Assembly: GCA_022453515.1 (NCBI GenBank)
Contig: JAJNNY010000005.1
Coordinates: forward strand, 1-64,000
Length of the DNA: 64,000 nt
Source: Astrocystis sublimbata
Lineage: Eukaryota; Ascomycota; Sordariomycetes; Xylariales; Xylariaceae
Direction of reading: 5' to 3'
Shown: positions 1 through 37,926 of the stretch, piece by piece
How positions within the stretch are numbered: the first letter of the stretch is position 1
Layout: every line of letters starts with the position of its first letter
Notes under the pieces: model-generated
What the model saw: only the letters and a program-made list of their open reading frames with translations
Told to the model about the DNA's origin: nothing
Database searches by the model: none
Position numbers and translations under genes: made by a program

Positions 1-313
1 CGGTTGATCGTTGTTCCCGTTCGAAGCCCAGTCATCAGTCCTAAGGTTTTGTCTATTGGTAAGGGGCTGGGAGTAAGTAGATCCCCTCTGCAGTCGGTGC
101 CATGATGCGGTTTGGATACATGACATATCATGATTATGCTGCTGCGTGTAAGTAGGCATATAAGTATGAACGGTGCCGACTGAATCTCCAACATTATGAT
201 CAGATTCATACAGAAGTCTCCGTCTAGAAGTCAGCATTCTCCCAAAATCTCATTTCTCATTAGTTTGAATGAATTGCTGTGACATAGGTATCCAACATCA
301 CAACAACAACACC
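1..313. other. Upstream region of left NmrA-like gene
   Basis: AT-leaning intergenic sequence between the window edge and the NmrA start. It includes a CAACAACAACACC leader just before the ATG. No further gene, tRNA or repeat is visible. It mirrors 10,936-11,248. Confidence 0.6.
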
Positions 314-1291
314 ATGCCAAAACTCGTCACAGTAGTCGGCGCTACCGGCAACCAAGGCAGCGCAGTTATCGAAGCCCTCATCTCGGACCCCGCATATACC
401 CTCCGCGGGCTCACCCGCAACACCTCATCCCCAGCTGCGCAAGCCCTATCCCACCGCGGCGTAGAGATCGTCTCCGCCTCCCTCGACGACCTCCCATCTC
501 TCAAGGCCGCCTTCGCAGGCTCCTACGCCGTCTACGGGGTCACAGGTCTCTACGAGCTACTCGCCAAACACTCTCCTTCCAAGGCTGCTGAGATCGAGGA
601 GCAATGGGGCAAGAACATTGCGCAAGCAGCTGCTGAGACGCAGGGGCTGGAGCATTTCATCTGGAGCACCCTCCCGCCGGCGGCAGAGATCAGTGCAGGG
701 AAATACGTTCTCACGAACCATGTCTCGAAGAACGGAGTCGACGAATACATCCGCTCGGGAGCGAGTAGCGAGCTGGCTGAGAAGACGACGTATCTTTTCA
801 TTGGGCAGTATCATAGCAATTACTCGTACGGGCCGGTGTCGATTCACAAGATACCCTCGGCGAGTAACGGTGGTAGCAGTGATACGTATGTTCATCTTGC
901 GTCTCATGCGTCCGAGACGCCGATTTACTGGATCGGCGACGTGACGAGGAACTTGAGGCCGTTTGTCAAGGCTATTTTTGATGATCCGGAAAAGACGAAG
1001 GGCAATGTCGTGTTTGCGTACTCGGAGGTCACATCGTCGGAGGAGAGTCTGCAGATCTGGGCAAGGGCTAAGGGCGTTAGGGCCTTCCATGTCCCTGTGT
1101 CGACGGAGCTGCTGCATGACATGTGGGGAGAGATGGCGGATTTCCTGGGGGGCATGTGGAGGTACTGGGGCGAGTATGGGGAGAAGGCTTGGTCGAAGCC
1201 GGGGTACAAGGTTCTTACGGGCAAGGACTTAGATGTGCATGGGGATGAGTTCGTTAGTCTGGAGGAGTCTTTCAAGGATTATGAGATTTGA
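314..1291 (+). CDS. NmrA-like NAD(P)-binding protein (left copy)
   Basis: Intronless, 325 residues. The N terminus has the Rossmann dinucleotide motif GATGNQG at residues 9-15, followed by an NmrA/isoflavone-reductase-like body. The start is placed at the ATG at 314 (ACCATGC context, directly before the beta1 strand) rather than at the in-frame ATG at 269, which would add 15 residues with no family counterpart. NmrA-like proteins sense or use NAD(P)(H); some are regulators, others reductases, and substrate cannot be told here. The 3' end faces the ferric reductase 3' end across 211 bp. The second copy at 9,958-10,935 is identical, so both should give the same protein if the duplication is real. 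Confidence 0.9.
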   Translation: MPKLVTVVGATGNQGSAVIEALISDPAYTLRGLTRNTSSPAAQALSHRGVEIVSASLDDLPSLKAAFAGSYAVYGVTGLYELLAKHSPSKAAEIEEQWGKNIAQAAAETQGLEHFIWSTLPPAAEISAGKYVLTNHVSKNGVDEYIRSGASSELAEKTTYLFIGQYHSNYSYGPVSIHKIPSASNGGSSDTYVHLASHASETPIYWIGDVTRNLRPFVKAIFDDPEKTKGNVVFAYSEVTSSEESLQIWARAKGVRAFHVPVSTELLHDMWGEMADFLGGMWRYWGEYGEKAWSKPGYKVLTGKDLDVHGDEFVSLEESFKDYEI

Positions 1292-1502
1292 CAGGGTGCG
1301 GAGGCAGGGTTTAAGTAGTATGTTCGAGATGCTGCAATACTATAGTAGTCAAACTTATCATTCAGGGGTTTCATTGCATTCCAAAGATCATAGTCGCCCT
1401 GTGAATGTCAAGGAAATGAAGCTGATATGGGTATTTCTGTAAAGTAGTAATCTCCGGTACATGAGGAAAGCAGCTATTATATCTAATTACCTTTACACTT
1501 GT

Positions 1503-4147
1503 TTACCAAGCAAAAGCCTCCTCAATAAGATCTACGTTAAACCCATCCCTTACACAACCAACAACCTGCTTCCTCGCCTCATCCGCCATCTGGCCCGGTC
1601 CGCAGACCAGCACCGTAGTCTGCCGCTCTACCTCAATACACGACCTGATCACGGACCCAATGTTCATCCTTCCGGATGTAACTGCTGCGTCCACCCCTTT
1701 CGAGATGTGGCCGACCTCACCCTTATTCAGCGACTCTGACCCTTTCTCCATAACATCCTCAGACGACCCAGTGCACCAGAGCAAAACTTCCACTCCCTGC
1801 GCCTTGAAAAGGAAGTTCTTCTTCACGTGTTCGATGAAGGCCATCTCGTTTGCAGACCAGGCTAGCACGAACCTCTTCGCTCGTCTCATCACGCCGCGAC
1901 CCTTCGTCGCTGTCTCACCCTCGTGAGCCACACTGTTAGCATTAGCGTAGTCCTGGACAAAACCCAGGGCATGAGTAATGCCGAGTCCACCGACGATGCA
2001 CAGCACCGTGTCAGCGGTGTATAAAGGCTGCAGCGTAGCATTGTGACCAGCGTAGTACCCCTCGGTGTACACGGAGATCTCAACTTTGGAGTCTGCATTA
2101 GATGGGGCGGAGAGGTATCGCTGCAGCGCCCCCGTCATGCCGGAATGCGCTCTGATAAGGAGCTGGAAGGAGGCGTCATTTTGGGGTTTCTGCACATCGC
2201 GGGTGACGATTGCTTCTTGGTGGTGTGGCGTTGCGGTCAGCTTTACGTGATGAAGAGAATCTCTCTTCGATGCGCCTGACGTGTTGCCTCCTTCTGATGC
2301 TGAGACAGAGGATGAAGAGGTTAGCTGTACAGATGATGAAGAAGTGTGATGCGTTTGTGTCTGCCACGCTGCGATGCTGAAGGGGTGGCTCTCCCAGAAC
2401 TTGCCAAGTCCAGGGAAGTAGAGGAATGTGTGCTGGCCTGGACCGATTCCACGCGTCACCCGTGGAAACACCGTGACGTGGAGGATATTGCAGCCGGGGA
2501 TGGCTTCGACGATTGCTTTGGTGTTCCCGAGACGATTGTAGTATAAGACGCGGACTGCGCGAGCAAGTCGGTCGGCGGACCAGAATGCGAAACAGATGTA
2601 GAGCCAGACTTGGTAGCCGTACTGCGGAAAGTTGGGCATGTCAGCTAAGTTATGAAGGGGTGTGCTTCTCGCCGCTCTCTACCATCGTAGATTAAGGGAA
2701 GCTTGATACATACCTTAAAGCCGAAATGGGGAACGAGATGGTACCAGCATGCAACCAGGGAGAGAATGATCAGGACGATGTGTGTTATCAGGAAGAACTC
2801 GTAGTAGGATATACGGAGGGGCAATACAGCGAAAGCTGTCGCCAGACTCAAGGCAATGGTGCCAATGATTCCCCACCACTACGACAAAAGTCAGTAAGAG
2901 GAAAAACTTCCATGTTGCCGAAACATTTGATTGTTGGAATAAAACATAAATTCCATGACAGCAGGAGACTTACATAAAAGGGTTCTGCCACCTCCTTAGC
3001 ATAGGACGTTGCCCCCTCATATCCCGGGTCCGTGTATTGCAGCGTGTACGCCGCAGAGTGTACAATAGCCTGCAGCGTAGCTACTCTCGCCGCCCATCGA
3101 TGTAGCGTCATGAATGTTGTTTGGCTCCATCCCGTGATGGCGATCAGGATGTTGTTTCGTCCCGCAAACAAGATGGCGATGCTCATATTCACAAGGCTGA
3201 GCATACCCGTTCGGTTGCCGACATATTCACAAAGTTCGACCCGCATTGTCGGCCAGTAGATATTTGGCTGAAAACTCCCGAAGGAGATTGACGAGAACAC
3301 GATGTTGAGGATGATGTAGATGCCGATGGAGGCCCCGAGGGCTCGGCTAGGCATGTACCCCAGGTTGCCTGGAAGTGGCTCTAGGTGTCGCGACCCGAGG
3401 AATGCTGGGAGGTATAGATATTGTCGAAGTTTTGATGTCAGGCTTGACGGCCGGCTAGCTCCCGGGAATAACGTTGCGAGCTGAGTCTTCAACCCCCAAA
3501 GAAGGCAAGTTCCAATGACGATAAAATAGAGGATGACGCTGTGTTAATATGTCATTAGCCCCACTGATCATACGTTTTCTGAACATTCTGGAGAATTGAA
3601 CAGAGGCAACTTACGAGTATCTTGTGTGAATATACTCTGATCTTGAAAACTCGTCCAATGTTCCATGTGTAGTATGATACAGATGTGAATTTACTAGACT
3701 CGTAGCGTTGAGCCATGTCGCGTCCTCTGGGAGTTCGACGGTCGGCGCTGTGGCCGGCAGACTTTGATGGTAAGATGGACCCGATGCGCCCGAAAGTGCG
3801 TGAGTGTTGAAGCATGCTGCTTGTCTTCTCTCCGTATACCCATCTGGAGTACAGGCCTGTTTTATACAATAGGCCATGGACTGCAGCCACGGTTTGTTGG
3901 AAGTTCGACATTCATCACTCGTCATGGGCATCGCTTCCATGTCCATCCCATCGTCCATTCCTGACATATCATCATGTTCAGGGAATGTGGTGCAGTTCAG
4001 GTATAAGGAAGCGAGCGAATCGTGACATGCTAGACAACATGAGTCTTGGTATAAGGAAAGACCAAAACCAATGATGCCATTTCCAGCTGCAACGTCCTGG
4101 GCCAGCAGGAGGAGCGAAAGACCGAAAACGACTGATGAAGAGACCAT
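1503..4147 (-). CDS. FRE-type ferric/cupric reductase (left copy)
   Basis: Mirror image of 7,102-9,746. Exons on the minus strand are 4,147-3,615, 3,538-2,974, 2,878-2,714 and 2,621-1,503, giving 793 residues. All domain statements made for the right copy apply unchanged: signal peptide, cysteine-containing N terminus, membrane core with two histidine pairs, HPFSI flavin motif and C-terminal NAD(P)H motifs. It is transcribed away from the palindrome centre and converges on the NmrA-like gene. Confidence 0.92.
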
Positions 4148-5480
4148 CTTTGTGAGTCGTTTGCTGAACAGGTCGGGAAGAAGAAGAAGCGTTTCTCGAC
4201 GTGGGTTTAGTTCTTCGTGACCATAAATTTGCCTCGATTTGACAGATAGGAACTGAAGGTTATCAGAGAGTTGTGTGTAGGGGAACACGGATGAGGATAG
4301 GAACAATAGAGTACATCTTATAATCATCAAATAGATCCTATAGTCAATCAATTGTGATAAAGGGTTGAGCTAAACAAGCCTGGACTCTTCTGAAGGATGC
4401 GCCACGAGCTATACATCTAGTCACATGTTAACTCTTCTGAGTATAATAGCACAGATAAATAGCCCGATGATGAACTATTAAGTCTATGGTACATAGATCA
4501 GCTGAGACGAGCATGTTTGCATTGCTTGTTTTACCTAGTACCATGGAGTCGGGAAGATCGGGATACCGACCCGTAACAATCGAAAAGTTGACTTCGGTAC
4601 CCCAGCCAATCACCCAGAGCCGATTACCGATTCAAGTAACATGCAATAAAGTAAGTTTCTGCTCAAGGAAACATTGCTCTGATAGTTATCTACTCATCGC
4701 AACGTAATTCGTTGTTACAGGGCACAATGTGTTGCCCTCTGGTGGGGCTAAGGATCACGATGAGAGAGATTGAGCTAGTTTTGGAGGCTGGATGTTTCGA
4801 CGGCTAAATGGACAAAATGTCGAGCACATTTCCACGCCACCCTTTAGCCAATCAAGAGTTAGTTGTCTGGAGATGACCTGGCGCCGTCAGACCCGGACGC
4901 CACTAAACGTCCTGTCGGGTTCACTAAAGCACTTAATCAATTCCAGCAGCTATACGCGGAGCATACCTCCGTATACTGTCTAAGTAGCGGAACGTTCTGG
5001 ACGGATACACGCTCGGAGGGTATCCGATGGCCGTAATAACTTTTCGAGTCAGTAGATAGATAGCATTGCATCTTGATGTGTCTCTGGCTATCACTGTCAA
5101 CAGCTGTAGTGTTCTTCTTTGTTTCACTCTTAAGGATGTATGCGTCGTGCAAAACGCCGTTCAATAGTCAAGCAGTTGAGAACATGCTCATCCGAACAAA
5201 CTAGACCCATGCTAGGGTGAAAGCGTTGGAACACCCAGTGTGGTGGATCAAAGAAGGACAGCCAATCTTTGATATTCCATCTGCTTTGAACCGTTTGGCG
5301 CATTCGTTAGTAAATTTGGTCAGAGGCATTACAGAGATTAAAATATCTTGTACGAAAGTGTATGATGGCGAACGATTCTCGTCTCTCTGTAACCATGAAG
5401 TTGATCAAGTTGAGTAAGCGGATTGGAAATGAAATTGGAAATTTTGGTATTGTTTCTTCAGACTGACTGTGATTCACGTA
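4148..5480 (-). promoter_or_regulatory. Ferric reductase promoter region (left copy)
   Basis: A 1.33-kb gene-free stretch between the left reductase ATG and the central element. HGATAR sites lie at 4,260-4,265 and paired on both strands around 4,678-4,691. Fungal iron-responsive GATA repressors (SreA/SRE/Urbs1 family) bind HGATAR, so iron repression is plausible but inferred. Short ORFs such as 5,217-5,417 have no recognisable similarity. Confidence 0.4.
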
Positions 5481-5768
5481 AGTCCACTCTGGCCCGCGGT
5501 GGAAGGACTAAATGTCCGGGTCCCCGCCCATACCTCACAAGCTACCTTTGTTAATGCTTGATAATTCAACACATCATAAGTCAATTATTATTAAAATAGA
5601 ATAGAATATAGATTAATAACATAGAATGCTATGTTTTAACTTTTAACGTTTAAATCGTAGAATTGACATAGTTATATATATTGTTAAGTTGTTTATTAGG
5701 TAGCAAAGTAGGTGTGTATACCTGGGGACCCGGACACTTAATGCTTCCACCGCGGGCCAGAGTGGACT
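5481..5768. mobile_element. MITE-like TIR element at palindrome centre
   Basis: A 288-bp segment is flanked by TA on both sides (5,479-5,480 and 5,769-5,770). Its ends are inverted repeats of about 45 bp, 5,481-5,525 and 5,724-5,768. The outer 25 bp match perfectly; the inner part has about three mismatches before a shared run reading TGTCCGGGTCCCC. The interior is AT-rich, has no ORF, and is not self-complementary. Size, TIRs and TA flanks fit a non-autonomous Tc1/mariner-type MITE. Because the flanks are themselves palindromic, the TA pair is not independent proof of a target duplication. Confidence 0.7.
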
Positions 5769-5770
5769 TA

Positions 5771-7101
5771 CGTGAATCACAGTCAGTCTGAAGAAACAAT
5801 ACCAAAATTTCCAATTTCATTTCCAATCCGCTTACTCAACTTGATCAACTTCATGGTTACAGAGAGACGAGAATCGTTCGCCATCATACACTTTCGTACA
5901 AGATATTTTAATCTCTGTAATGCCTCTGACCAAATTTACTAACGAATGCGCCAAACGGTTCAAAGCAGATGGAATATCAAAGATTGGCTGTCCTTCTTTG
6001 ATCCACCACACTGGGTGTTCCAACGCTTTCACCCTAGCATGGGTCTAGTTTGTTCGGATGAGCATGTTCTCAACTGCTTGACTATTGAACGGCGTTTTGC
6101 ACGACGCATACATCCTTAAGAGTGAAACAAAGAAGAACACTACAGCTGTTGACAGTGATAGCCAGAGACACATCAAGATGCAATGCTATCTATCTACTGA
6201 CTCGAAAAGTTATTACGGCCATCGGATACCCTCCGAGCGTGTATCCGTCCAGAACGTTCCGCTACTTAGACAGTATACGGAGGTATGCTCCGCGTATAGC
6301 TGCTGGAATTGATTAAGTGCTTTAGTGAACCCGACAGGACGTTTAGTGGCGTCCGGGTCTGACGGCGCCAGGTCATCTCCAGACAACTAACTCTTGATTG
6401 GCTAAAGGGTGGCGTGGAAATGTGCTCGACATTTTGTCCATTTAGCCGTCGAAACATCCAGCCTCCAAAACTAGCTCAATCTCTCTCATCGTGATCCTTA
6501 GCCCCACCAGAGGGCAACACATTGTGCCCTGTAACAACGAATTACGTTGCGATGAGTAGATAACTATCAGAGCAATGTTTCCTTGAGCAGAAACTTACTT
6601 TATTGCATGTTACTTGAATCGGTAATCGGCTCTGGGTGATTGGCTGGGGTACCGAAGTCAACTTTTCGATTGTTACGGGTCGGTATCCCGATCTTCCCGA
6701 CTCCATGGTACTAGGTAAAACAAGCAATGCAAACATGCTCGTCTCAGCTGATCTATGTACCATAGACTTAATAGTTCATCATCGGGCTATTTATCTGTGC
6801 TATTATACTCAGAAGAGTTAACATGTGACTAGATGTATAGCTCGTGGCGCATCCTTCAGAAGAGTCCAGGCTTGTTTAGCTCAACCCTTTATCACAATTG
6901 ATTGACTATAGGATCTATTTGATGATTATAAGATGTACTCTATTGTTCCTATCCTCATCCGTGTTCCCCTACACACAACTCTCTGATAACCTTCAGTTCC
7001 TATCTGTCAAATCGAGGCAAATTTATGGTCACGAAGAACTAAACCCACGTCGAGAAACGCTTCTTCTTCTTCCCGACCTGTTCAGCAAACGACTCACAAA
7101 G
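5771..7101 (+). promoter_or_regulatory. Ferric reductase promoter region (right copy)
   Basis: Mirror of the left promoter. HGATAR sites are AGATAA at 6,558-6,563, TGATAG on the minus strand at about 6,565-6,570, and TGATAA at 6,984-6,989, about 115 bp before the ATG. The cluster suits iron-dependent GATA-factor control, which is an inference from family knowledge. Confidence 0.4.
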
Positions 7102-9746
7102 ATGGTCTCTTCATCAGTCGTTTTCGGTCTTTCGCTCCTCCTGCTGGCCCAGGACGTTGCAGCTGGAAATGGCATCATTGGTTTTGGTCTTTCCTTATAC
7201 CAAGACTCATGTTGTCTAGCATGTCACGATTCGCTCGCTTCCTTATACCTGAACTGCACCACATTCCCTGAACATGATGATATGTCAGGAATGGACGATG
7301 GGATGGACATGGAAGCGATGCCCATGACGAGTGATGAATGTCGAACTTCCAACAAACCGTGGCTGCAGTCCATGGCCTATTGTATAAAACAGGCCTGTAC
7401 TCCAGATGGGTATACGGAGAGAAGACAAGCAGCATGCTTCAACACTCACGCACTTTCGGGCGCATCGGGTCCATCTTACCATCAAAGTCTGCCGGCCACA
7501 GCGCCGACCGTCGAACTCCCAGAGGACGCGACATGGCTCAACGCTACGAGTCTAGTAAATTCACATCTGTATCATACTACACATGGAACATTGGACGAGT
7601 TTTCAAGATCAGAGTATATTCACACAAGATACTCGTAAGTTGCCTCTGTTCAATTCTCCAGAATGTTCAGAAAACGTATGATCAGTGGGGCTAATGACAT
7701 ATTAACACAGCGTCATCCTCTATTTTATCGTCATTGGAACTTGCCTTCTTTGGGGGTTGAAGACTCAGCTCGCAACGTTATTCCCGGGAGCTAGCCGGCC
7801 GTCAAGCCTGACATCAAAACTTCGACAATATCTATACCTCCCAGCATTCCTCGGGTCGCGACACCTAGAGCCACTTCCAGGCAACCTGGGGTACATGCCT
7901 AGCCGAGCCCTCGGGGCCTCCATCGGCATCTACATCATCCTCAACATCGTGTTCTCGTCAATCTCCTTCGGGAGTTTTCAGCCAAATATCTACTGGCCGA
8001 CAATGCGGGTCGAACTTTGTGAATATGTCGGCAACCGAACGGGTATGCTCAGCCTTGTGAATATGAGCATCGCCATCTTGTTTGCGGGACGAAACAACAT
8101 CCTGATCGCCATCACGGGATGGAGCCAAACAACATTCATGACGCTACATCGATGGGCGGCGAGAGTAGCTACGCTGCAGGCTATTGTACACTCTGCGGCG
8201 TACACGCTGCAATACACGGACCCGGGATATGAGGGGGCAACGTCCTATGCTAAGGAGGTGGCAGAACCCTTTTATGTAAGTCTCCTGCTGTCATGGAATT
8301 TATGTTTTATTCCAACAATCAAATGTTTCGGCAACATGGAAGTTTTTCCTCTTACTGACTTTTGTCGTAGTGGTGGGGAATCATTGGCACCATTGCCTTG
8401 AGTCTGGCGACAGCTTTCGCTGTATTGCCCCTCCGTATATCCTACTACGAGTTCTTCCTGATAACACACATCGTCCTGATCATTCTCTCCCTGGTTGCAT
8501 GCTGGTACCATCTCGTTCCCCATTTCGGCTTTAAGGTATGTATCAAGCTTCCCTTAATCTACGATGGTAGAGAGCGGCGAGAAGCACACCCCTTCATAAC
8601 TTAGCTGACATGCCCAACTTTCCGCAGTACGGCTACCAAGTCTGGCTCTACATCTGTTTCGCATTCTGGTCCGCCGACCGACTTGCTCGCGCAGTCCGCG
8701 TCTTATACTACAATCGTCTCGGGAACACCAAAGCAATCGTCGAAGCCATCCCCGGCTGCAATATCCTCCACGTCACGGTGTTTCCACGGGTGACGCGTGG
8801 AATCGGTCCAGGCCAGCACACATTCCTCTACTTCCCTGGACTTGGCAAGTTCTGGGAGAGCCACCCCTTCAGCATCGCAGCGTGGCAGACACAAACGCAT
8901 CACACTTCTTCATCATCTGTACAGCTAACCTCTTCATCCTCTGTCTCAGCATCAGAAGGAGGCAACACGTCAGGCGCATCGAAGAGAGATTCTCTTCATC
9001 ACGTAAAGCTGACCGCAACGCCACACCACCAAGAAGCAATCGTCACCCGCGATGTGCAGAAACCCCAAAATGACGCCTCCTTCCAGCTCCTTATCAGAGC
9101 GCATTCCGGCATGACGGGGGCGCTGCAGCGATACCTCTCCGCCCCATCTAATGCAGACTCCAAAGTTGAGATCTCCGTGTACACCGAGGGGTACTACGCT
9201 GGTCACAATGCTACGCTGCAGCCTTTATACACCGCTGACACGGTGCTGTGCATCGTCGGTGGACTCGGCATTACTCATGCCCTGGGTTTTGTCCAGGACT
9301 ACGCTAATGCTAACAGTGTGGCTCACGAGGGTGAGACAGCGACGAAGGGTCGCGGCGTGATGAGACGAGCGAAGAGGTTCGTGCTAGCCTGGTCTGCAAA
9401 CGAGATGGCCTTCATCGAACACGTGAAGAAGAACTTCCTTTTCAAGGCGCAGGGAGTGGAAGTTTTGCTCTGGTGCACTGGGTCGTCTGAGGATGTTATG
9501 GAGAAAGGGTCAGAGTCGCTGAATAAGGGTGAGGTCGGCCACATCTCGAAAGGGGTGGACGCAGCAGTTACATCCGGAAGGATGAACATTGGGTCCGTGA
9601 TCAGGTCGTGTATTGAGGTAGAGCGGCAGACTACGGTGCTGGTCTGCGGACCGGGCCAGATGGCGGATGAGGCGAGGAAGCAGGTTGTTGGTTGTGTAAG
9701 GGATGGGTTTAACGTAGATCTTATTGAGGAGGCTTTTGCTTGGTAA
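7102..9746 (+). CDS. FRE-type ferric/cupric reductase (right copy)
   Basis: Predicted plasma-membrane reductase that moves electrons from cytosolic NADPH through FAD and two hemes to extracellular Fe(III)/Cu(II). Exons are 7,102-7,634, 7,711-8,275, 8,371-8,535 and 8,628-9,746; junctions GTAAGT/ACACAG, GTAAGT/CGTAG and GTATGT/CCGCAG keep the frame, giving 793 residues. Residues 1-18 are a signal peptide, then an extracellular segment with several Cys and Met residues. The membrane core carries two histidine pairs, His324/His338 and His399/His413, with the 14-residue spacing of FRE/NOX heme ligands. HPFSI (500-503) is the FAD motif; GGLGIT (from 632) and CGPG (from 761) bind NAD(P)H. Start chosen at AAGATGG, directly before the signal peptide; an in-frame ATG upstream at 6,898 would bury it. 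Confidence 0.92.
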
Positions 9747-9957
9747 ACAAGTGTAAAGGTAATTAGATATAATAGCTGCTTTCCTCATGTACCGGAGATT
9801 ACTACTTTACAGAAATACCCATATCAGCTTCATTTCCTTGACATTCACAGGGCGACTATGATCTTTGGAATGCAATGAAACCCCTGAATGATAAGTTTGA
9901 CTACTATAGTATTGCAGCATCTCGAACATACTACTTAAACCCTGCCTCCGCACCCTG

Positions 9958-10935
9958 TCAAATCTCATAATCCTTGAAAGACTCCTCCAGACTAACGAAC
10001 TCATCCCCATGCACATCTAAGTCCTTGCCCGTAAGAACCTTGTACCCCGGCTTCGACCAAGCCTTCTCCCCATACTCGCCCCAGTACCTCCACATGCCCC
10101 CCAGGAAATCCGCCATCTCTCCCCACATGTCATGCAGCAGCTCCGTCGACACAGGGACATGGAAGGCCCTAACGCCCTTAGCCCTTGCCCAGATCTGCAG
10201 ACTCTCCTCCGACGATGTGACCTCCGAGTACGCAAACACGACATTGCCCTTCGTCTTTTCCGGATCATCAAAAATAGCCTTGACAAACGGCCTCAAGTTC
10301 CTCGTCACGTCGCCGATCCAGTAAATCGGCGTCTCGGACGCATGAGACGCAAGATGAACATACGTATCACTGCTACCACCGTTACTCGCCGAGGGTATCT
10401 TGTGAATCGACACCGGCCCGTACGAGTAATTGCTATGATACTGCCCAATGAAAAGATACGTCGTCTTCTCAGCCAGCTCGCTACTCGCTCCCGAGCGGAT
10501 GTATTCGTCGACTCCGTTCTTCGAGACATGGTTCGTGAGAACGTATTTCCCTGCACTGATCTCTGCCGCCGGCGGGAGGGTGCTCCAGATGAAATGCTCC
10601 AGCCCCTGCGTCTCAGCAGCTGCTTGCGCAATGTTCTTGCCCCATTGCTCCTCGATCTCAGCAGCCTTGGAAGGAGAGTGTTTGGCGAGTAGCTCGTAGA
10701 GACCTGTGACCCCGTAGACGGCGTAGGAGCCTGCGAAGGCGGCCTTGAGAGATGGGAGGTCGTCGAGGGAGGCGGAGACGATCTCTACGCCGCGGTGGGA
10801 TAGGGCTTGCGCAGCTGGGGATGAGGTGTTGCGGGTGAGCCCGCGGAGGGTATATGCGGGGTCCGAGATGAGGGCTTCGATAACTGCGCTGCCTTGGTTG
10901 CCGGTAGCGCCGACTACTGTGACGAGTTTTGGCAT
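9958..10935 (-). CDS. NmrA-like NAD(P)-binding protein (right copy)
   Basis: Identical 325-residue protein to the left copy, on the opposite strand, with the same GATGNQG motif at residues 9-15 and the same ATG choice (10,935). It converges on the right ferric reductase with 211 bp between stop codons. Confidence 0.9.
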   Translation of the reverse strand: MPKLVTVVGATGNQGSAVIEALISDPAYTLRGLTRNTSSPAAQALSHRGVEIVSASLDDLPSLKAAFAGSYAVYGVTGLYELLAKHSPSKAAEIEEQWGKNIAQAAAETQGLEHFIWSTLPPAAEISAGKYVLTNHVSKNGVDEYIRSGASSELAEKTTYLFIGQYHSNYSYGPVSIHKIPSASNGGSSDTYVHLASHASETPIYWIGDVTRNLRPFVKAIFDDPEKTKGNVVFAYSEVTSSEESLQIWARAKGVRAFHVPVSTELLHDMWGEMADFLGGMWRYWGEYGEKAWSKPGYKVLTGKDLDVHGDEFVSLEESFKDYEI

Positions 10936-12236
10936 GGTGTTGTTGTTGTGATGTTGGATACCTATGTCACAGCAATTCATTCAAACTAATGAGAAATGAG
11001 ATTTTGGGAGAATGCTGACTTCTAGACGGAGACTTCTGTATGAATCTGATCATAATGTTGGAGATTCAGTCGGCACCGTTCATACTTATATGCCTACTTA
11101 CACGCAGCAGCATAATCATGATATGTCATGTATCCAAACCGCATCATGGCACCGACTGCAGAGGGGATCTACTTACTCCCAGCCCCTTACCAATAGACAA
11201 AACCTTAGGACTGATGACTGGGCTTCGAACGGGAACAACGATCAACCGCAGTTGGGACAATATTATACCACTTACATGCACTGCGCTGACTGAAGGGCGT
11301 TGAACGACACCAATGGATGGGTGGTGAGTGGCTAAGAAAGTCCCCTATTGAGCATTAATGTGACGTCGCATGGCTTAGTAAACTAGCAGCCCTTGAAGTT
11401 GGTAAGCAAATTGCCAACTGCAGAAATTCGGGGTGCGACTACTGACTACCTGCAGGTTATCTAGACAGGACCCTGATTCGACAAACCATATCCCGCCTCG
11501 GCCTCTGTTTCCATGATTCATCGACGACGTATGATCAATCAATCAACATCACCAACGAACATGCAGCATGTGGCTTGAGTTGGTGTGCTTGCTGACCGAC
11601 CATCCATCATCTTAATTTGATACTAATACCACATTGGCTCTATTTCAATAGCCCCGTGAACATACCTCAATTACCTCACACCCCTATCATACTACTTCCC
11701 AACAACCGAGAAGCACAACGGTTGTCAAGTTGAAGCATGCGATAACTGAGTCGAACAATAGGGGGCCCGATAATGCAATCACAAACGGTGACTATATCAG
11801 AAAGGGCAATTCATATCTTCATTCACGTCAAAGCAGATGCATGTATGTACTCTATTCGTTAGTCCGGTGTCCCGAAGCTGAAGAATCCGGGTCTGAAAGA
11901 ATGAGCAGGACAGCTCGGTTCGCAGGGTTCTGTTACCAGACCCCCGAAAACCCGCTGTGTATAATTGTTCTCGCGTCTTTTTGTGGTCTCAATGCCATTG
12001 AATGTAATCTCGAGAGATCACAGCAATAAGACGTATCGTATCTGAACGCTGAATGTAGATGTAGACGGGGGGTTATAAAGAAAGAAGAAGAAGATAAAGA
12101 AGAAAAGGGGAGGGATCAATATACAATCATGTACAATTGTCTTCTCTATATACGGAGATGGGTATATGTTGGTCTTGTTGTATGTTGTACAAATCTTTGG
12201 TACACGTTCTACCTCGTTTCAAGTTATCACGCCGTC
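10936..12236. other. Intergenic, palindrome edge to CYM1
   Basis: The first 313 bp belong to the palindrome arm. The rest, from 11,249, is single-copy within this window. Only short ORFs occur (11,012-11,303; 11,730-12,029; 12,129-12,452), none with recognisable content; the last overlaps the 3' end of the presequence protease antisense. A purine-rich tract at 12,075-12,115 is probably downstream of the CYM1 stop. Confidence 0.5.
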
Positions 12237-15200
12237 CTACTCAGTGACAGCGACGTTGATCTCCTTCACCATCCAGGAGTCGTCGACCCAGTCTTGCTTC
12301 TTGCCCAAGAAAGCAGTCTGTTCGTTCTGCTTGGCGAGCGCGTCGACGATGTACTTTTGCGCTACTTCTTGGACTTGATCCTTTGTCACATCAAGAAGCT
12401 GCTCTCGTCTCTTTTGCTGCATTTCGTCCGTGACTCCGGACACGAACCGTAGCATGCCCTCAGTGTTTACCGATTTGGGGGCATCAACGCTTTGGAAGAC
12501 GGAAATTTTGGCTTCTTCTATGTCTTGGTTGGACCATGCTTTATCAACAGCGAAGCGCCCTGCGTTCCTCATGATGGACAGCGTGTTCTGGGGATTGGGA
12601 TCCCGGTATGAGTAAAAACCGAACAGTCCCTCCAGTCCCTTCATATACGCGCCACCTCCATATGCACCACCCTTCTCACGGATCTCATGATGCAGGTGCT
12701 TGTGCGTTAGGAGTTGTGCTAGGATTTGGAGTGGGGCGCCATCGGAAGAGGTGTATGAAACTGTCGGTACGGCCAAACTTCCGTAGTAGACCTGGTAAGG
12801 CAGTGGGAAGAATGCTTTTACATCGCGAGTCGGAGTTTGTCCCGAGCTTGCGGGGAATTTCACAGCCTGGCTTGCTCGGGCGGACATGAACTGTGTCAGA
12901 GCTGAAGAATTGGCCGACGCGCTGTCAGGCCCGCAGGTTAAAGCAGTACGGATGTTATTGCCAGCCAGAGCGATAGCTTGGATCTGCTTGAGTTTGCTAA
13001 TGATGTCTTCCAGCTTGTCTGATTCAGGCCGCGCAGCCAGCGAAGTTATCAGCTTTACCTGCGACAAACCGCTGACTTGTTCGGTAAGCCATGCATCCCG
13101 AGTGAGCCCAGATTCAGCGTATCTTCGAGCGTAAGCATGGCCAGATGATGCGATATCATTAACAATGCCGTCAGCCGAAGCTTGGAGGAGCTGCCGTATC
13201 CTGAGGGCTGCCTCTGGGCTATCGAAGTTTGTCTCTAGAATGAGCTTCCGCAGAAGATCAAACATTTCAGGCACATTGCGGTCGAGGGCCATTCCTCTCA
13301 GGACGAGCCCTTCAGATGTATGGTGAAAGTCGTTGGGTGAAGGCGTCGTCATATAGCTGACGGAGATACCACCCGTCTTCAGTTTGATCGAGTCTTCGAG
13401 TTGTTCCATCGTCATATCCTTAGTACCCAGGCGCATGATGGAATCGGTGAAGAGAGGGATGAGCGAGCGAAGGTCATCCGGCAAATTCTCAAATGTGTTG
13501 ATTGCTCGAAAATACGTAAGCCCATTGGTTGGGGCTTCTCGCCATTGGATCTTGGTTCCGTCCAGGACCTCGTCACGGACTATGACGGGTTCCTTTCCTC
13601 TGGGAATATCCCGCACATGTACGGAGGGAAGGCAGCTCAAGTCCTGGGTGCTGGATTTGTTCTGTTCTACTAAAAGCTCAAGCTCTCGCTCTTCGAAGAA
13701 CTTGCGAGCAGCCTCTTCGCCACCCGCCTCCTCTGTAGCCTGGGCGATCTTCGATGCTAACCGCTCCTCTTCTTCCTTGGCTAATTCGGCGCTGTAGCCA
13801 TCCGAGGGTGCCATTGTGAAAGTCAGGGTGTTGTCGTTGATCAAATATTTGTCCATGAGACTCTCGAGATAACCGCCTTGCGCAAGCTTCGCCTCAAAGG
13901 CAGCGACGGTATCATTCCACGCTAACGAGTCAAAAGGATCAGTGCCTGAGAACCACTTTCCCTTTAGGCGCTGTAATACGTTCATTCCAAAGTTGGCTGT
14001 CTTGTGCTTCAAGCTCAGTTCGAGTTGGTGCATATATCCGTCGATTTTGCCTCGCTCGAAACCCTTGTCGCGCACCTCTCGGAGTATCCTTTGCACCTCA
14101 CTCTTCACTTTCTCAACATTGGACTCACTGACTCCCGTCAAGCCAACAGAGAAGGTTCCGGTAGCCGCTGACCCGTCGTACCCGGCGTTGGGGCTAAAGT
14201 CGGTGCCAAGGCCGCTCTCAACGAGACCTTTGTATAACGGCGAACCATAACCGTCCATCAAAAGCGACGACAGCAGTGCCACGGAGAAGGATTCAACAAC
14301 GTCACTTGTATCTCCAGCAATCCATGAGACTGAGGTCTTGTACTGCTTATCGGGATCCGCCAGGGGATCCACAGGCCCAAAGACTTTTACCGTCCGGGGC
14401 CCGTCGCTCAGGTCGATGGGCTGTTTGTGTTCGATGTCTGCCTGTATCCTCTCGAATGCGCTCATTTGCGCATCAATCTCTCTGAGGTGGTCGGCTAGAG
14501 GCATATCTCCGTACGTCATTAACTTAGCATTACTGGGATGGTAATGCTCGGCTTGGAACCTCTTGAGTTGTTCGTAGGTCAAGTCGGTGATTTTCTGAGG
14601 GTCACCGCCAGAGTTGTGGATGGATGGGAAAATGTGGTCTTGGAAGCGAATGTAGAACAGATATCCGGCGTCGGACATCTGTCCCTTCATCTCATTGTAG
14701 ACGACGCCCTTGAAGACGAGCTTGCTATCGTCGGGATTGGCCTCGCCCTCGGCTTCGGCGGTTCTCGGGTTCTCGGGGCCTATGCGCCAGCCCTCCTGAG
14801 TGAAGTCGGTCTGTTTGAGGAGCGGGTGAAGGGTCGCATCGAGGTAGACGGACATGAGATTCTGGAAGTCGCGCGCATTGGTGGTGGCGAAAGGGTAGAA
14901 AGTATGGTCGGAGGCCGTGAAGGCGTTCATGAAGTTGGACAGGGTGCGCGGAAGCATCTTGAAGAAGGGATCACGAATAGGGTATTTTTCGCTGCCGCAG
15001 AGAGTCGTGTGCTCGAGGATGTGAGGAACGCCGGTATCATCCGGGGGATTTGTCTTGAAGCCGATGGAGAAGACATTATTGCTGTCGTCTCTAGCGATGT
15101 GGAGATAGTCGGCGCCGGTCTTGTCGTGCTTCAGATGAAGCGCAGTCAGCTCGAGCTCGGGGACGTGCTTCGTCCGTAGCAAGGTGAAGCCATGGATCTT

Positions 15201-15275
15201 CTCGCCAGGGCTGGGATACTGGGAGAGTTCTGTGACTGCTCGCTTCGCCGCGCCCTTCACAGCATTGCGCAACAT
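12237..15275 (-). CDS. CYM1: Mitochondrial presequence protease (CYM1/PreP, M16C)
   Basis: Intronless, 1,012 residues. The inverted zinc motif HILEH is at residues 85-89 and the third zinc ligand is Glu195 in [10 protein letters not shown], as in M16C metallopeptidases of the PreP/Cym1 family. These degrade cleaved mitochondrial targeting peptides in the matrix. The ATG at 15,275 (CACC-ATG context) gives a basic, Ala-rich N terminus ([14 protein letters not shown]) suitable as a mitochondrial presequence. The open frame continues upstream to 15,374 but without another ATG. Length agrees with the family (about 990-1,030). No unusual residue was noticed in the active-site region. Confidence 0.95.
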
Positions 15276-17201
15276 GGTGTCGTGGGCGTGGCGTGATATC
15301 GAGCGGGCGTTTGTGCAGGCTCCGAACGAACGATCTAGATGCCTAGGACGGAATTGAATATATTCCGGGAGCAATTAGACAAGTACCAAGGATTCGTATC
15401 CGACGCAGCGATGCAGCAGCCCGGACGACAGACTACCTGTGCAAAAGATGGTGCTGGAGGAACGTTCGAGGAAGGTTGTTCCTAGGTCGGCATGTGTCTA
15501 GAAACTCGCCGAACATTACAATAGTTTGCATTGAGAAAATCCAATGACGCCTCCAGGCTTGCCGGGTGCACCCATTCCCGATCTAGGTAGGTACCTCCCT
15601 GAGACACCTAACCTTGAATGCCCACTAAGTCCTTGGAGAGGGTTTATGTGCATAGCGGGCTTAGCTTATTCAACTAACAAGATGATGCATACATTCAGGA
15701 CAAGGAATACACGCCAGGCTCGAAACAATACCTATCTCTATCTACCACAACAGTATTCCAAAAGTTGCTTCGATCTATACCCGGTCCATTGGTCGACCAG
15801 GTCTAGTCAAATATCAACGTTGAAGAAACATCAATTACTCAGAGAATATATGTACAGGTGCTGTCCAGGACGAGGCCAGGCGACCTAGGTAATTCGATAC
15901 CATAGTAGTGTCGTTTAACTCAAGGGTGCATGCATGGTAGGTATCCTGCGTGATTTCGGGTAGCAACATACATCATATGGCTACAACCTTGAAGGTTAAA
16001 TTGAGTTTCTATCACTATTTCTTTTCATTATATTTTTGTTTCCAAATTGCTCAGGTAATTAATTACACTTGAGGAGCTGATAGAGTAGTACATACATGAG
16101 AGCAAGGGGGCAGCAGGTGTTTGCGCAATGACGTGGATTTGACATGTCCAACACCTCGAACTTGAGGTAACTATCCACATGCCGTGTATATAAATGAAAC
16201 TCAAACAGTTTATTGGCCGAGTTCACAAACAGATTGCTCGAGACTCAGACCCGTCAGGTACGGCTTGTGCCGTGCTGTGCCTTGCAAATCTCAATATTGC
16301 AACCGGCTCCATCAAATCCATCAAACTCCCCCACTGTGGACCGCCTCCTCGGGTAGGTAGGTACTGCGAGGTACAAGCCATCCAGGTGCCATCCAGAGTG
16401 ACAGGAACACAATTTGGAAGGACACAGCGACGGGCAAGAGGTACCGATGATTCCGAATCCCAATCATGGCACCGAGATCTCTGGCCAAGCCCAGCCAGCC
16501 CGGTGCGCCTGCCTGGGCCCCCTTGCGTGCTCGCGTGCCTGCCACTGGCCAGGGGGCGAGGGGGGGGAGGTGTCTTGGAGGAAGTAGGTACCTACCTAGG
16601 TAGTTCTGGTAAAAACCTTGAGGTGAGGTAGCACGCCGCACCACTGGCAGGCATGTGCCCAGGTGCCCTAGACGGAGGTACAGTTGCCCTGCACCCACTG
16701 TACCACCTTCCTAGCCCTGGTCCCTGGTCCCTGGAGGTACCTGCCGATGTACCTGCAATATCAAACGCCCCGGTTGAGTCATCGACCCCAATATCCAGCA
16801 GTGGCCATCCCTACCCACCTCACGTAACCGGCACTATCTACTAAACCGACTCGACCAGCCGCCGCCGCCGCCGCCTCGTGTCTATCTCGACAAACTTCTC
16901 TTAACAACCATCGTGACCACCGTTGACGCCGTTATACGCGCCCAAATACCCAGCAACACGCCCCAAACCCACCAATCGTTGCATTCCCCTCCGTCACGCC
17001 CCCGTATACGCAAAATATTTACTGCATTGCCTCTCAGATGCGCTGTTCTATCTCGCCCACGTAAGCAGCACCTGTTGGCCCCAGTTCGAACTCACGAACG
17101 ATCGCCTTCGCCGCTATTGTTGCCCGTGCCGACGCCGATTATATCGCCGACGCCGCCGCTTACCTCTGACCTACAGGCTTCGTTTTCTTTCTTAGTCTAC
17201 C
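15276..17201. other. Intergenic between CYM1 and taxilin
   Basis: A 1.9-kb divergent intergenic region. It contains copies of the palindromic motif around TACCTAGGTA (15,583-15,596; 16,584-16,603), a short GCC repeat at about 16,860-16,876, and a pyrimidine-rich leader before the taxilin ATG. ORFs at 15,544, 16,194 and 16,913 are low-complexity and not credible genes. Confidence 0.5.
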
Positions 17202-33508: not shown

Positions 33509-34300
33509 ATGCGCTTTGCCTCTCCTTACATCCTGTCGCTTCTGACAGCCGCGACAGCCGCACCCGCCGACGTCGCCTCGCGCGCCGCCAGCAGCGGGAC
33601 GGTGTGGGCAACACCCCACGACAGCTACTCCTCCTCGGTCGGCGTGCTGGGCTGCAAAGTGAACACGGACCGCATCGCATACTGGCCCGGCTCCGTCGAC
33701 TGCAACAACATCTGCGTCTCGCTCAAATACGCAGACCGCTCCGTGAAGCTGCTGCGCATCGACTCCTCCCAGGGCGCCCACGACGTCAGCTACGATGCGT
33801 GGAACTACCTGATCACCGGGTCCTCGGCCACGAAAAACCCCACCGCCGGCGGCCAGACTCCGATGGATTTCGAATACCTAGACCCCGGCGAGTGCTCGAG
33901 CCTGATCCACACGGACAAGCACAAGCTGCCGCTGAGCGCCTCCAACAGCATCAATTACCTCGCCAGCTGTCTCGAGCAGCCGGATAGCTGGGTCGCTAAG
34001 AACTACGTGCTGTATAATATCCAGGACGCCATTTGCACGTGGGGCCACGATGAGAAATGCGAGCTGGACTGGCCGAATGCGAACCAGCCTACGTGTGAGC
34101 ATACATTGGGCGACCCGGTTGCGCTGACGACGCAGCCGGTGTACAATATTCGGTATCCGTCGGGCGACAAAGTATCTGCTTCCTCTGGGGAGGTTGTCAG
34201 TGATGGTGGAGAGTCCGGGGGCTCAGGTGCTGGGAAGCCTGTGCCTGTCGTGGCAGCCATAGTGAGCCTGGCGGCTTACCATCTTTTTGTTATGTTTTGA
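33509..34300 (+). CDS. Secreted cysteine-rich, likely GPI-anchored protein
   Basis: Intronless, 263 residues. Residues 1-18 are a signal peptide ending in ATAA. The mature part has eight cysteines starting with GCKVN (Cys49) and DCNNIC (Cys65, Cys69), and the conserved segment KLLRIDSSQGAHDVSYDAWNYL. A Gly/Ser-rich linker and a hydrophobic C-terminal tail from about 244 are typical of a GPI signal. This architecture recurs in uncharacterised cell-surface proteins of filamentous fungi and resembles double-psi beta-barrel (barwin-like) folds in its Cys spacing and the DAWNYL region, but that fold assignment is inference. Location is likely cell wall or plasma membrane; function unknown. Confidence 0.82.
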   Translation: MRFASPYILSLLTAATAAPADVASRAASSGTVWATPHDSYSSSVGVLGCKVNTDRIAYWPGSVDCNNICVSLKYADRSVKLLRIDSSQGAHDVSYDAWNYLITGSSATKNPTAGGQTPMDFEYLDPGECSSLIHTDKHKLPLSASNSINYLASCLEQPDSWVAKNYVLYNIQDAICTWGHDEKCELDWPNANQPTCEHTLGDPVALTTQPVYNIRYPSGDKVSASSGEVVSDGGESGGSGAGKPVPVVAAIVSLAAYHLFVMF

Positions 34301-36026
34301 TCGTGTTAGCGAGTCTCGAGTATTTTTCAGTTCACAATGTCTTATTTATACTGTCAGGAAGGGGGGAGGTTTGTCAGTTTGGACGAACGTGCGGGATTGG
34401 ATCAGTAGGAATGATACCCTGGAGGAGGATGCGTTGCGAGCGACTATGATTTGCCACGAATACCCTGTTATGTTAATGTTTTATACTCGAATTTTGGATC
34501 AAGAAAACTTTGTCTAGCTATCTATGAAGCTGCTTTTATTCTATGCCAGGCTGTCTGTGAGAAATGCCTGCCTCGTGTACACCCGTGTCTACGAATTGTA
34601 AAGCCGTAATGTAATATCATTAAACAAACTGCTTGTATACGAGTCAACAGAACATCCCATCGTTTTGCATACAAGGACACTGAGATGGAACAAGATATCA
34701 TCTAGAACATCGGCGCATTGTCAATATCCTCATGGACAGTCAAGATAAGGTCGCAGAAAGCATGGTCCGGAAGGGAATATTGAGATACCAAACTAGGGGC
34801 CCGATAGCCATTGCACGATCAGCACCACCTATTTGAGACAACGTGGAACAGTCGTGAGACTTGCAAGTAAAGCTCGTAACCGAGTCATATTACTGTGTAC
34901 ATTTCGTAACAAGCACAACCACCTCCTCTGCGGTATCGTGTGCTATAACTACCTCATCCTCAAGACACAAGTAGATGCCGTCTGTGAAAGTATGGTGCCG
35001 CTAGCGACCTATCGATCTGTGGGAACTATACTTTTTTGAAACGGGCTCGAAGTCCGTCGTTCGCACGCCTGTTCCCTAGCCGCTACGGGTAAGTCTCCTT
35101 CATACCATCTAGTATCTAGTCTCCAAAAAAAAGCCAAGGGTATCAACTATTGTAACCACGCAACGAAGTCACCAGGGGAGTTAGGCTAGACTATCTATCT
35201 TTCAAGCTGAACTCATTCCCGTCTTGCGTCAGGATGGCTGAGCAGTCGCGCTCGGTCATTCTAGACAGCTCTTTACTCGTCGGGCATACGGGGTGTACAC
35301 ACAGTTCTCATGGATCTCAGTTGATAGATACCCTGTTCTCGAGCGATCGCATTGTATACTTGTACCATTGTTCCCGCCCAACCGGTGTATCCTTAGACTC
35401 TGCACAACCTTAGTGGTCAGTCACCCTGTCCTTTGTCCGGTAGTGAGTGGGTATTACGTATTGTCTATCTATCGTCAATGCCAACTTGACGACAACAGCG
35501 TCAGTTCCTCCGTTAGGTGTACACCTTAGCTACAGATCATAAATCAACTTCTCATGACATGTTCGTATTTAGCTCGCCAGAAGCCTGAAATCTTGGGTGA
35601 AAATGCCACATGATTACATTAAATCTGTATTTTTATGTTCATCCAGAGATGATGGTCTTTTCGCATCTCGAGGCATGCATTCAAGAGTGCAAGCAGCATT
35701 AGAAAATCCCGATATACCTAATTAAGTAGTCAAACATGATGAATAAGTGACATGAATTCGGTATAGCAACTCATCTATCATGATGCCGTCTAGTGTTATG
35801 GCAGCTCCCCCCCTCCCCTTAGATGAACGATTGTATGTAGACTTGTTTCTTACCTATTACAAACAACTACTTATCCAACCATCCTACAGCTAAATAGGAG
35901 CACTTGAAACTGTTTCCTATATAAAGCAAACAAAACATAAACCTAGGGGAGAACAAACCTCCGTCCGTCTATTATATATACCAATATGTCGGGTCCGTTA
36001 ATTAACACTACACAACCAATCAACAA
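34301..36026. other. Intergenic upstream of transposon
   Basis: A 1.7-kb gene-free stretch that becomes AT-rich towards the transposon. A 20-base segment at 35,228-35,247 resembles the 5' acceptor/D-arm portion of a tRNA-Leu but has no matching 3' half nearby. Small ORFs are not credible. Confidence 0.45.
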
Positions 36027-36028
36027 TA

Positions 36029-37872
36029 ACGTCATCCACAAGTAGTCTTCGCACCCAAGTAGTCTTCGCACTTTTCAACATTTCTAAACCTTCTACCTTT
36101 ACTTACAAATATTTTACTAATCACAATATGATATATAAATCTAGTGAAGCTAATCTGCAGCTAGCGATTTAGGCTAAAAAACGTAACCCTGAATTTTCCC
36201 TACGTAAGATTGCTAAGATCTATAATATTTGCGACCGTACATTATCCCAACGTTTCAATAGTTCCTAACCACGCCACTTTGCTAACCAAAAATTACGAAA
36301 ACTTACGATGTTTGAAGAAGATACGATTGCTAGACGCGTAATCGAGCTAGGTTCGCGAGCGTTTCCGCCCCGGCTTCGATATATTGAAGAAATAGCCAAT
36401 ATCCTCCAACGCGTACGCGACGCGAAACCCGTGGGCAAGAACTGGGCCTCGAACTTCGTACAACAACGACCTAACCTCCGAACGCGTTTAAATCGTCGAA
36501 TCGATTACTAGCGAGCCTTTAACGAAAATTCTACAAGTTATCGCGCGTAGTTCAAGCTTATAGCTGATATAATTACGAAATACAGTATTGCGGTTAAGGA
36601 TATATATAACTTTAACGAGTTAGGGTTTTTAATAGGTATAATTATAACTAGAATAGTTGTAACAAGCTTAGAAAGACGTAAAAGACCTAGGCAGGCCCAG
36701 CAAGGAGGTAGAGAATAGGTTATAGTGGTTCAAGCCATCAATTCTTAAGGCTGGGTAGTGCCGCCGTATATCATCTTCGCGGGCGTATATCACCTCGCGT
36801 TTTAGTATCGCGACACCACTCTACCACTCAACTGGGTCATCGATCTCTCAAGTAATAGTTGGACCACGAACGAAATAGGCGTAAAATAGCTACAGTACTT
36901 CGATTTACATACTCGGAGCTATATAAAGGGTATAAAACGCCTCTTGATCCTTAATAGTTATAAAAGCCACTATTTGATAGAATTCGAGGAATTTTATAAA
37001 AACAATAATATTATTACCCTTTATATGCCTATTTATTCGTTATATAAACTTTAGCCTTTTGATCTAGTACTTTTTAATATAATAAAATACTTCTACTTAT
37101 TATATATCAAGGACCTAATACAGCAGTATTAAACCTATATTATAAAGGAAGATTTTTTAGCCGGGTTTTTTAAAACGTTTATAAATATTTTTATATAAAA
37201 AAACATTCGATTAGGATTTAAAACTACTAAACTTATCCCTTTAGATATAAAAAAAGTAATTTTTTAATTAGATATAAAAAAAAACAAAAAAACTCCCTCT
37301 ATTGAACCCGAACTACCCCCCCTAGCTTGGACTTCTAAGACACCTACTACCTTTTTTAAAGCCTTAGAACAGTTAACCCTTATTAAAAACAGTGTCCAAA
37401 GGTATCAAGGGAGCTCACCAACACCGATTTTCCAATCAATTAACTCAATTACGAAGGCTATACACGCTATAATACATAAGGTCGCCCTTTTACGCCGAAA
37501 GAACAAGGAACTTCGCGAGACTAATCATATACTTAACAAACGTCACAGGACAAAAAACAAGCAACTAATATATAAAGGACCTCTTATTATAAAGGATTCT
37601 TAAGTTCTATAAGAATTGAAAGGCGATAATAATATTAAATCGGTAGTAGAAAATGAAAGTAGTCATCCAGCGAAGAGGGCGCGGACGGGTCAAAGGCGGT
37701 ATGGCATCTGCGGCGGCAAGGGCATAATGCGCGAACATGTCAAATAGAAGTAAAAACCTCTAAAGAAAACGATTCCGATTGATTTGAACTGTTTTAATTG
37801 CATTATTGTTGTGTTTTCAATAATGGCGCAAAGTACTTGCTAAAAAGTGCGAAGACTACTTGTGGATGACGT
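36029..37872 (+). mobile_element. Fot1/pogo-family transposon, RIP-type mutated
   Basis: A complete 1,844-bp element. Terminal inverted repeats of 26 bp, 36,029-36,054 and 37,847-37,872, are perfect. TA dinucleotides at 36,027-36,028 and 37,873-37,874 form the target duplication typical of Tc1/mariner/pogo elements. The interior carries one transposase frame of Fot1 type. A 14-bp direct repeat of TIR sequence (36,041-36,054 and 36,058-36,071) follows the left end only. AT content is high between 36,950 and 37,300. Confidence 0.93.
36128..37603 (+). pseudogene. Fot1-like transposase, dead by in-frame stops
   Basis: One continuous frame of about 492 codons runs from the ATG at 36,128 to the TAA at 37,601 with no indels, but it holds 12 internal stops, all TAG or TAA and none TGA. 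The N terminus has a psq-type helix-turn-helix (FSLRKIAKIYN) followed by a CENP-B-type domain (36,308-36,508). The DDE region is recognisable, but two expected catalytic Asp positions read Asn: IYNFNELG instead of the family's FDETG, and LLILNSYKSH instead of LILDGHxSH. Such changes (CAA/CAG to TAA/TAG, GAC/GAT to AAC/AAT) are what repeat-induced point mutation produces. It cannot encode an active enzyme. Confidence 0.9.
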
Positions 37873-37926
37873 TATACGAAAAAGTAAACAGAAACAAATA
37901 GATGAACCAGGATGCAAAACAACTTG

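Follow-up and report, generated by a model that had tools for sequence, protein, structure and literature searches.

The first 64,000 nucleotides of contig JAJNNY010000005.1 of the ascomycete Astrocystis sublimbata (assembly GCA_022453515.1), which together form the window analyzed here, begin with a giant palindrome at positions 1 to 11248. Comparisons within the assembly and with relatives indicate, with very little room for doubt, that this palindrome is a fold-back artefact at the end of a contig, i.e. that it is present in the assembly but is not a feature of the genome. The fold lies within the terminal inverted repeats (TIRs) of a short dispersed element, a second contig carries the unfolded continuation of one arm, the gene order in relatives agrees with the unfolded version, and folded ends recur at other contigs of the same assembly.

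The palindrome and its position on the contig

Base-by-base pairing revealed that base i complements base 11249-i for all i from 1 to 5505, without a single mismatch, and the same arms were recovered by a scan for exact inverted repeats that used 25-mer seeds. The two arms (1-5505 and 5744-11248) are separated by a loop of 238 bp (5506-5743). A preliminary description of the window had claimed exact arms of at least 5,505 bp around a 238-bp loop, and this geometry was fully borne out. The palindrome is far above chance expectation. In the other 52.7 kb of the window, the longest exact inverted repeat, again with 25-mer seeds, has a length of 29 bp, and no exact inverted repeat of at least 25 bp was found at any of eight other genome loci that were scanned (L012-L019, 7-10 kb each).

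The right arm contains two genes. A ferric reductase-like gene (7706-9746, plus strand) consists of two exon-size open frames with matches to the Pfam families Ferric_reduct, FAD_binding_8 and NAD_binding_6, and an NmrA-like gene (9958-10980, minus strand) was also recognized with Pfam. The left arm carries the mirror images of both, in agreement with the earlier claim of a ferric reductase gene and an NmrA-like gene per arm.

The window is identical to bases 1-64000 of a contig of 1,285,255 bp (C135 in our numbering), and the whole assembly comprises 42.6 Mb in 189 contigs. The first base of C135 is window base 1, and the left arm runs off the contig end. Because its outer edge is set by the contig end, the length of the arm has no biological boundary, and position 11248 is the mirror image of that end. 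A genuine palindrome would be flanked by unique DNA on both sides, but no unique sequence beyond the left arm was found in the assembly. When the genome was searched with window 5740-11248, only three matches were obtained, namely the two arms of C135 and a terminal stretch of a second contig, C154. The possibility that the arms are paralogues was rejected on the basis of this result. The right arm (plus strand) is native sequence, and the left arm (minus strand), which starts at contig base 1, is almost certainly a spurious reverse-complement copy of 5744-11248.

The unfolded junction and the element at the centre

Bases 1-3683 of C154 (193,898 bp) are the reverse complement of window 5496-9178 with 100% identity and include the first 3,435 bp of the right arm (5744-9178). 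Past the left TIR of the central element, C154 continues with different sequence. An unfolded continuation of the right arm, as expected for a fold-back artefact, is thus present elsewhere in the assembly. The C154 flank beyond the element (6,317 bp) encodes an ornithine decarboxylase (ODC), and a genome search with it gave no match other than itself at E <= 1e-10. In spite of the overlap of 3.7 kb at 100% identity, C135 and C154 were left unjoined in the assembly.

The centre of the palindrome is formed by an element of 264 bp (5493-5756), the TIRs of which match at 27 of 30 positions and which has dispersed copies in the genome. It resembles a miniature inverted-repeat transposable element (MITE), i.e. 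a non-autonomous TIR element. The ends of the window copy were compared with six other copies (L012-L017), including the one on C154; two more distant copies (L018 and L019) were left out. All six begin with CAT at the left end, terminate with GGG at the right end, and are flanked by a direct 5-bp target-site duplication (CCAGA, GTAGG, CCCCC, CTAGA, CCAGG, and GCGAG). These duplications, the TIRs, and the dispersed copies are typical of non-autonomous TIR elements; the difference is that the central element here is the site of the fold and not a chromosomal palindrome.

The window copy alone deviates from this pattern. Its three outer bases on the left are CCC instead of CAT, and the flanking 5-mers are inverted, with TCTGG at 5488-5492 and CCAGA at 5757-5761 (plus strand). 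These features indicate that the left side of the window element was copied from its right side. The 5-mer at 5757-5761 is the right half of a target-site duplication, and its partner CCAGA is found on C154. Because C154 holds the complete direct duplication, its version represents the native insertion and the left junction in the window is derived. The fold-back junction itself could be located to 10 bp, GCGGTGGAAG (5496-5505), which are common to the tip of the native left TIR and the mirrored tip of the right TIR. They belong to both paths because the mirror symmetry reaches 5505, whereas C154 and the window do not part until just beyond 5496 on its left side.

The gene order in relatives was compared by means of locus tags and of gene sets on equally long contigs, among the best 120 matches per protein search. 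The genes considered were the ODC gene of C154, the NmrA-like gene of the arm, and an open frame for a mitochondrial presequence protease (M16C family; 12237-15374, minus strand), which adjoins the NmrA-like gene in the unique flank of C135. In Xylaria bambusicola, ODC (RRF57_006650), NmrA (RRF57_006652), and the protease (RRF57_006653) lie close together, and in X. arbuscula NmrA (NPX13_g2303) is next to the protease (NPX13_g2304); the latter two genes thus have adjacent locus tags in two Xylaria annotations. NmrA and ODC are close neighbours in X. hypoxylon (E0Z10_g4847 and E0Z10_g4850) and in X. polymorpha (CIB48_g7657 and CIB48_g7654), as are the protease and ODC in Monosporascus sp. 5C6A (DL771_010645 and DL771_010642). 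Because homologues of the ODC gene on C154 are found near those of the NmrA and protease genes on C135, the order C154-arm-C135 is the native one. For a genuine palindrome, a compatible gene order in relatives and a native junction would be expected, but both the relatives and C154 have the unfolded order.

Fold-backs elsewhere in the assembly

A further contig, C38, has a length of 29,240 bp and redundantly covers window 11249-37147. It was compared with the window over three stretches, which together account for 12.6 of its 29.2 kb. The last base of C38 aligns exactly with position 11249, the edge of the palindrome, and therefore 11248/11249 is an assembly breakpoint. Between its terminal 5 kb and the window there are no substitutions but ten 1-base indels, all of which lie within the last 1.2 kb. 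At the other side, C38 turns back near 37,110 (fold site 37074-37147), whereas C135 continues straight. Specifically, bases 1-3427 of C38 correspond to window 33,720-37,147 in forward orientation (99.5% identity), and bases 3352-4600 correspond to window 37,145-35,897 in reverse orientation (99.0%). Folded and unfolded versions of one and the same place therefore coexist in the assembly. A seemingly second presequence protease of 999 amino acids, which is 98% identical to the first and is assigned to a contig with the length of C38 (29,240 bp), differs from it in the C-terminal part, where C38 has its indels.

Fold-backs were also found at the ends of other contigs, as would be expected if they recur as artefacts of the same assembly. 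The outer 400 bp of 59 contig ends were retrieved, one of which read N, leaving 58 readable ends. After omission of 13 ends with a GC content below 0.38 and one identical end, the outermost 90 bp of 44 ends were used for genome searches. The contigs were picked by hand and not at random, and starts and ends were not taken from the same contigs throughout. For at least 12 of the 44 ends, the same contig contains an inverted copy of the outer 90 bp with 99-100% identity. These counts are lower bounds, because 40 of 47 candidate matches were scored in two search rounds. Four of the 32 tested starts were folded (C188, C2, C134, and C20), compared to eight of the 12 tested ends (C1, C103, C106, C111, C112, C136, C189, and C100); for these hand-picked contigs, the difference between numbered ends and starts is significant (Fisher p = 0.0009). 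Outside the tested 44, the starts of C163 and C48 and the end of C121 are folded as well. Several contigs have shared termini, i.e. C1 and C56 at their ends, C163 and C121, and C2 and C48 at their starts. The contig C182 (113,380 bp) contains a long palindrome that starts at 83,486 or earlier and ends at about 113,080, and the last approximately 0.3 kb turn back once more, resulting in a double fold (C182:112881-113380 versus 81700-83600).

The loops were readable at 12 of 17 fold centres and have lengths of 0, 0, 23, 27, 28, 45, 71, 94, 94, 99, 234, and 238 bp. At C134, C2, C103, and C112 the register was shifted by indels, and the start of C106 has only a short local hairpin. Near the centres of C134 and C103 the differences between the arms are almost exclusively gaps, with two mismatches each and 14 and 20 gap openings, respectively. 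The pair C163/C112 repeats the plan of C135/C154: C163 folds at its start, and C112 shares the arm and the 71-bp loop. C112 matches C163 over 904 bp at 100% and then has its own continuation, with two bases common to both at the junction. A short AT-rich, hairpin-like element at C106:1-74 also spans the fold centres at C2:3509-3553 and C48:3510-3585.

Two further repeats were noted in the window. Positions 36026-37875 contain an AT-rich repeat of 1.85 kb with perfect 29-bp TIRs, for which at least 57 matching pieces are present across the genome, mostly with 77-91% identity. At 50956-51208 there is a tandem repeat with a period of 87 and 2.9 copies.

Probable origin of the fold and its consequences

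The native order is unique DNA of C154 with the ODC gene, the 264-bp element, the right arm with the ferric reductase and NmrA-like genes, and unique DNA of C135 from the protease onward. We propose that, when the DNA was amplified or the library was made, a strand with the left TIR at its end folded onto its own right TIR, with 10 identical base pairs at the TIR tip and 27 of 30 bp paired overall. The folded strand would then have been extended by copying of the arm, and the product may have been read as a single long inverted chimeric molecule. The assembler would have retained this chimera at the terminus of C135 without joining C135 to C154. The fold within the TIR, the native junction on C154, the gene order in relatives, the numerous other folded contig ends, and the coincidence of the breakpoint with the end of C38 are direct observations, whereas the in vitro origin of the chimera, the responsible step, the use of long reads, and the way in which the assembler kept the chimera are inferred.

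Comparable artefacts have been described. For multiple displacement amplification (MDA) with phi29 polymerase, more than 85% of the chimeras are described as inverted with an intervening deletion, intramolecular events are favoured, and priming occurs at complementarities of 2-21 nt in more than 70% of the junctions (Lasken and Stockwell 2007, PMC1855051). The junctions of C135, C163, and C38 were compared base by base with their native partners. An inverted join with short complementarity and a loop, as in MDA chimeras, was found at C135 (10 bp and a 238-bp loop) and at C163 (2 bp and a 71-bp loop). With the 454 reads of that study, which had a length of about 100 nt, a comparison of arm lengths is not feasible. 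According to the Pacasus article (PMC6218980), palindromic long reads arising after whole-genome amplification reach assemblies as inverted duplications, and such reads made up 43.6-47.8% in two amplified Arabidopsis sets, but about 0.5% in an unamplified control. Inverted chimeras in amplified long-read libraries are also described in a further article (PMC13265396), and the double fold of C182 resembles the multi-inversion reads that are reported there for amplified DNA. Foldback reads, in which a strand continues directly into its complement, also occur in long-read libraries, including unamplified ones, where they are less frequent, and library preparation is the most likely cause in the authors' opinion (Breakinator, PMC12870357; PMC13141652). 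Virtually no foldbacks are given there for PacBio HiFi and about 0.55-0.6% for Oxford Nanopore Technologies (ONT) genomic DNA (PMC12870357). In contrast to these low library rates, a large share of the contig ends is folded here, and therefore amplification or selection by the assembler would be needed. Another article describes poor base calls for inverted duplicates on nanopores (PMC7229812), which were not used as evidence here.

The preliminary description had offered three readings of the palindrome, i.e. a very recent inverted duplication, a chromosome end or hairpin intermediate, and a chimera of the library or the assembly. The last is supported by the continuation on C154, the gene order in relatives, and the common fold-backs at contig ends, whereas the first two are not supported. 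If a chromosome break had been followed in vivo by fold-back priming at the TIRs, the resulting real and recent inverted duplication would have just such a junction, with short inverted complementarity, a loop, and perfect arms. However, the same assembly contains the unfolded version with its intact direct target-site duplication, the relatives match this version, and C135 itself speaks against the like fold of C38 near 37,110. In addition, 12 folded ends among 44 are hard to reconcile with chromosome-scale events, and we consider this explanation very improbable. It is just as improbable that inverted repeats such as this TIR element primed genuine inverted duplications by fold-back in a minority of the nuclei of the cultured mycelium, and that sequencing caught many of these duplications at once. 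A natural hairpin or palindromic end of a chromosome would be in accord with the location of the palindrome at a contig end, but it is extremely improbable, as C154 continues with native sequence past the element and no telomeric run of more than 7 bases was found in the outer 400 bp of the 58 readable ends. Moreover, if the sample is typical of the 378 contig ends, 12 of 44 implies about a hundred folded ends, which exceeds the number of chromosome ends in an ascomycete.

A pure graph error of the assembler at the TIR, without any chimeric molecule, also appears unlikely. The location of the junction within the TIR speaks for it, and so do the shared contig termini (C38 at window 11249, and the pairs C1/C56, C163/C121, and C2/C48). 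Nevertheless, 10 bp that are identical across the junction and a pairing of 27 of 30 bp are short for a false overlap, and the loops at ten further folds measure 0-99 bp. Some observations do weigh against a fold-back chimera. The arms are flawless over 5.5 kb, which for a raw single read would need polishing or a consensus. Near several fold centres many substitutions between the arms were found, which in part stem from the loops; the numbers of mismatches and gap openings are 23 and 22 for C112, 30 and 8 for C1, 25 and 2 for C163, and 13 and 2 for C2. The NmrA and ODC genes of X. digitata are assigned to contigs of different lengths (71,076 and 118,607 bp), and no linkage is seen there. Furthermore, a literature search found no paper recognizable as describing the sequencing of this genome.

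Reading the palindrome as a contig-end fold-back clears the genome of A. sublimbata of a spurious giant palindrome with perfect arms and of a duplication of two genes that is equally false. Such palindromes can be checked by a simple desk test that considers the contig coordinate, looks for a partner contig without the fold, and inspects the target-site duplication around a central transposon. Since many contig ends of the public assembly are folded back and one or more of its contigs are both redundant and folded, gene duplicates, copy numbers, or inverted repeats that are derived from its contig ends are untrustworthy.

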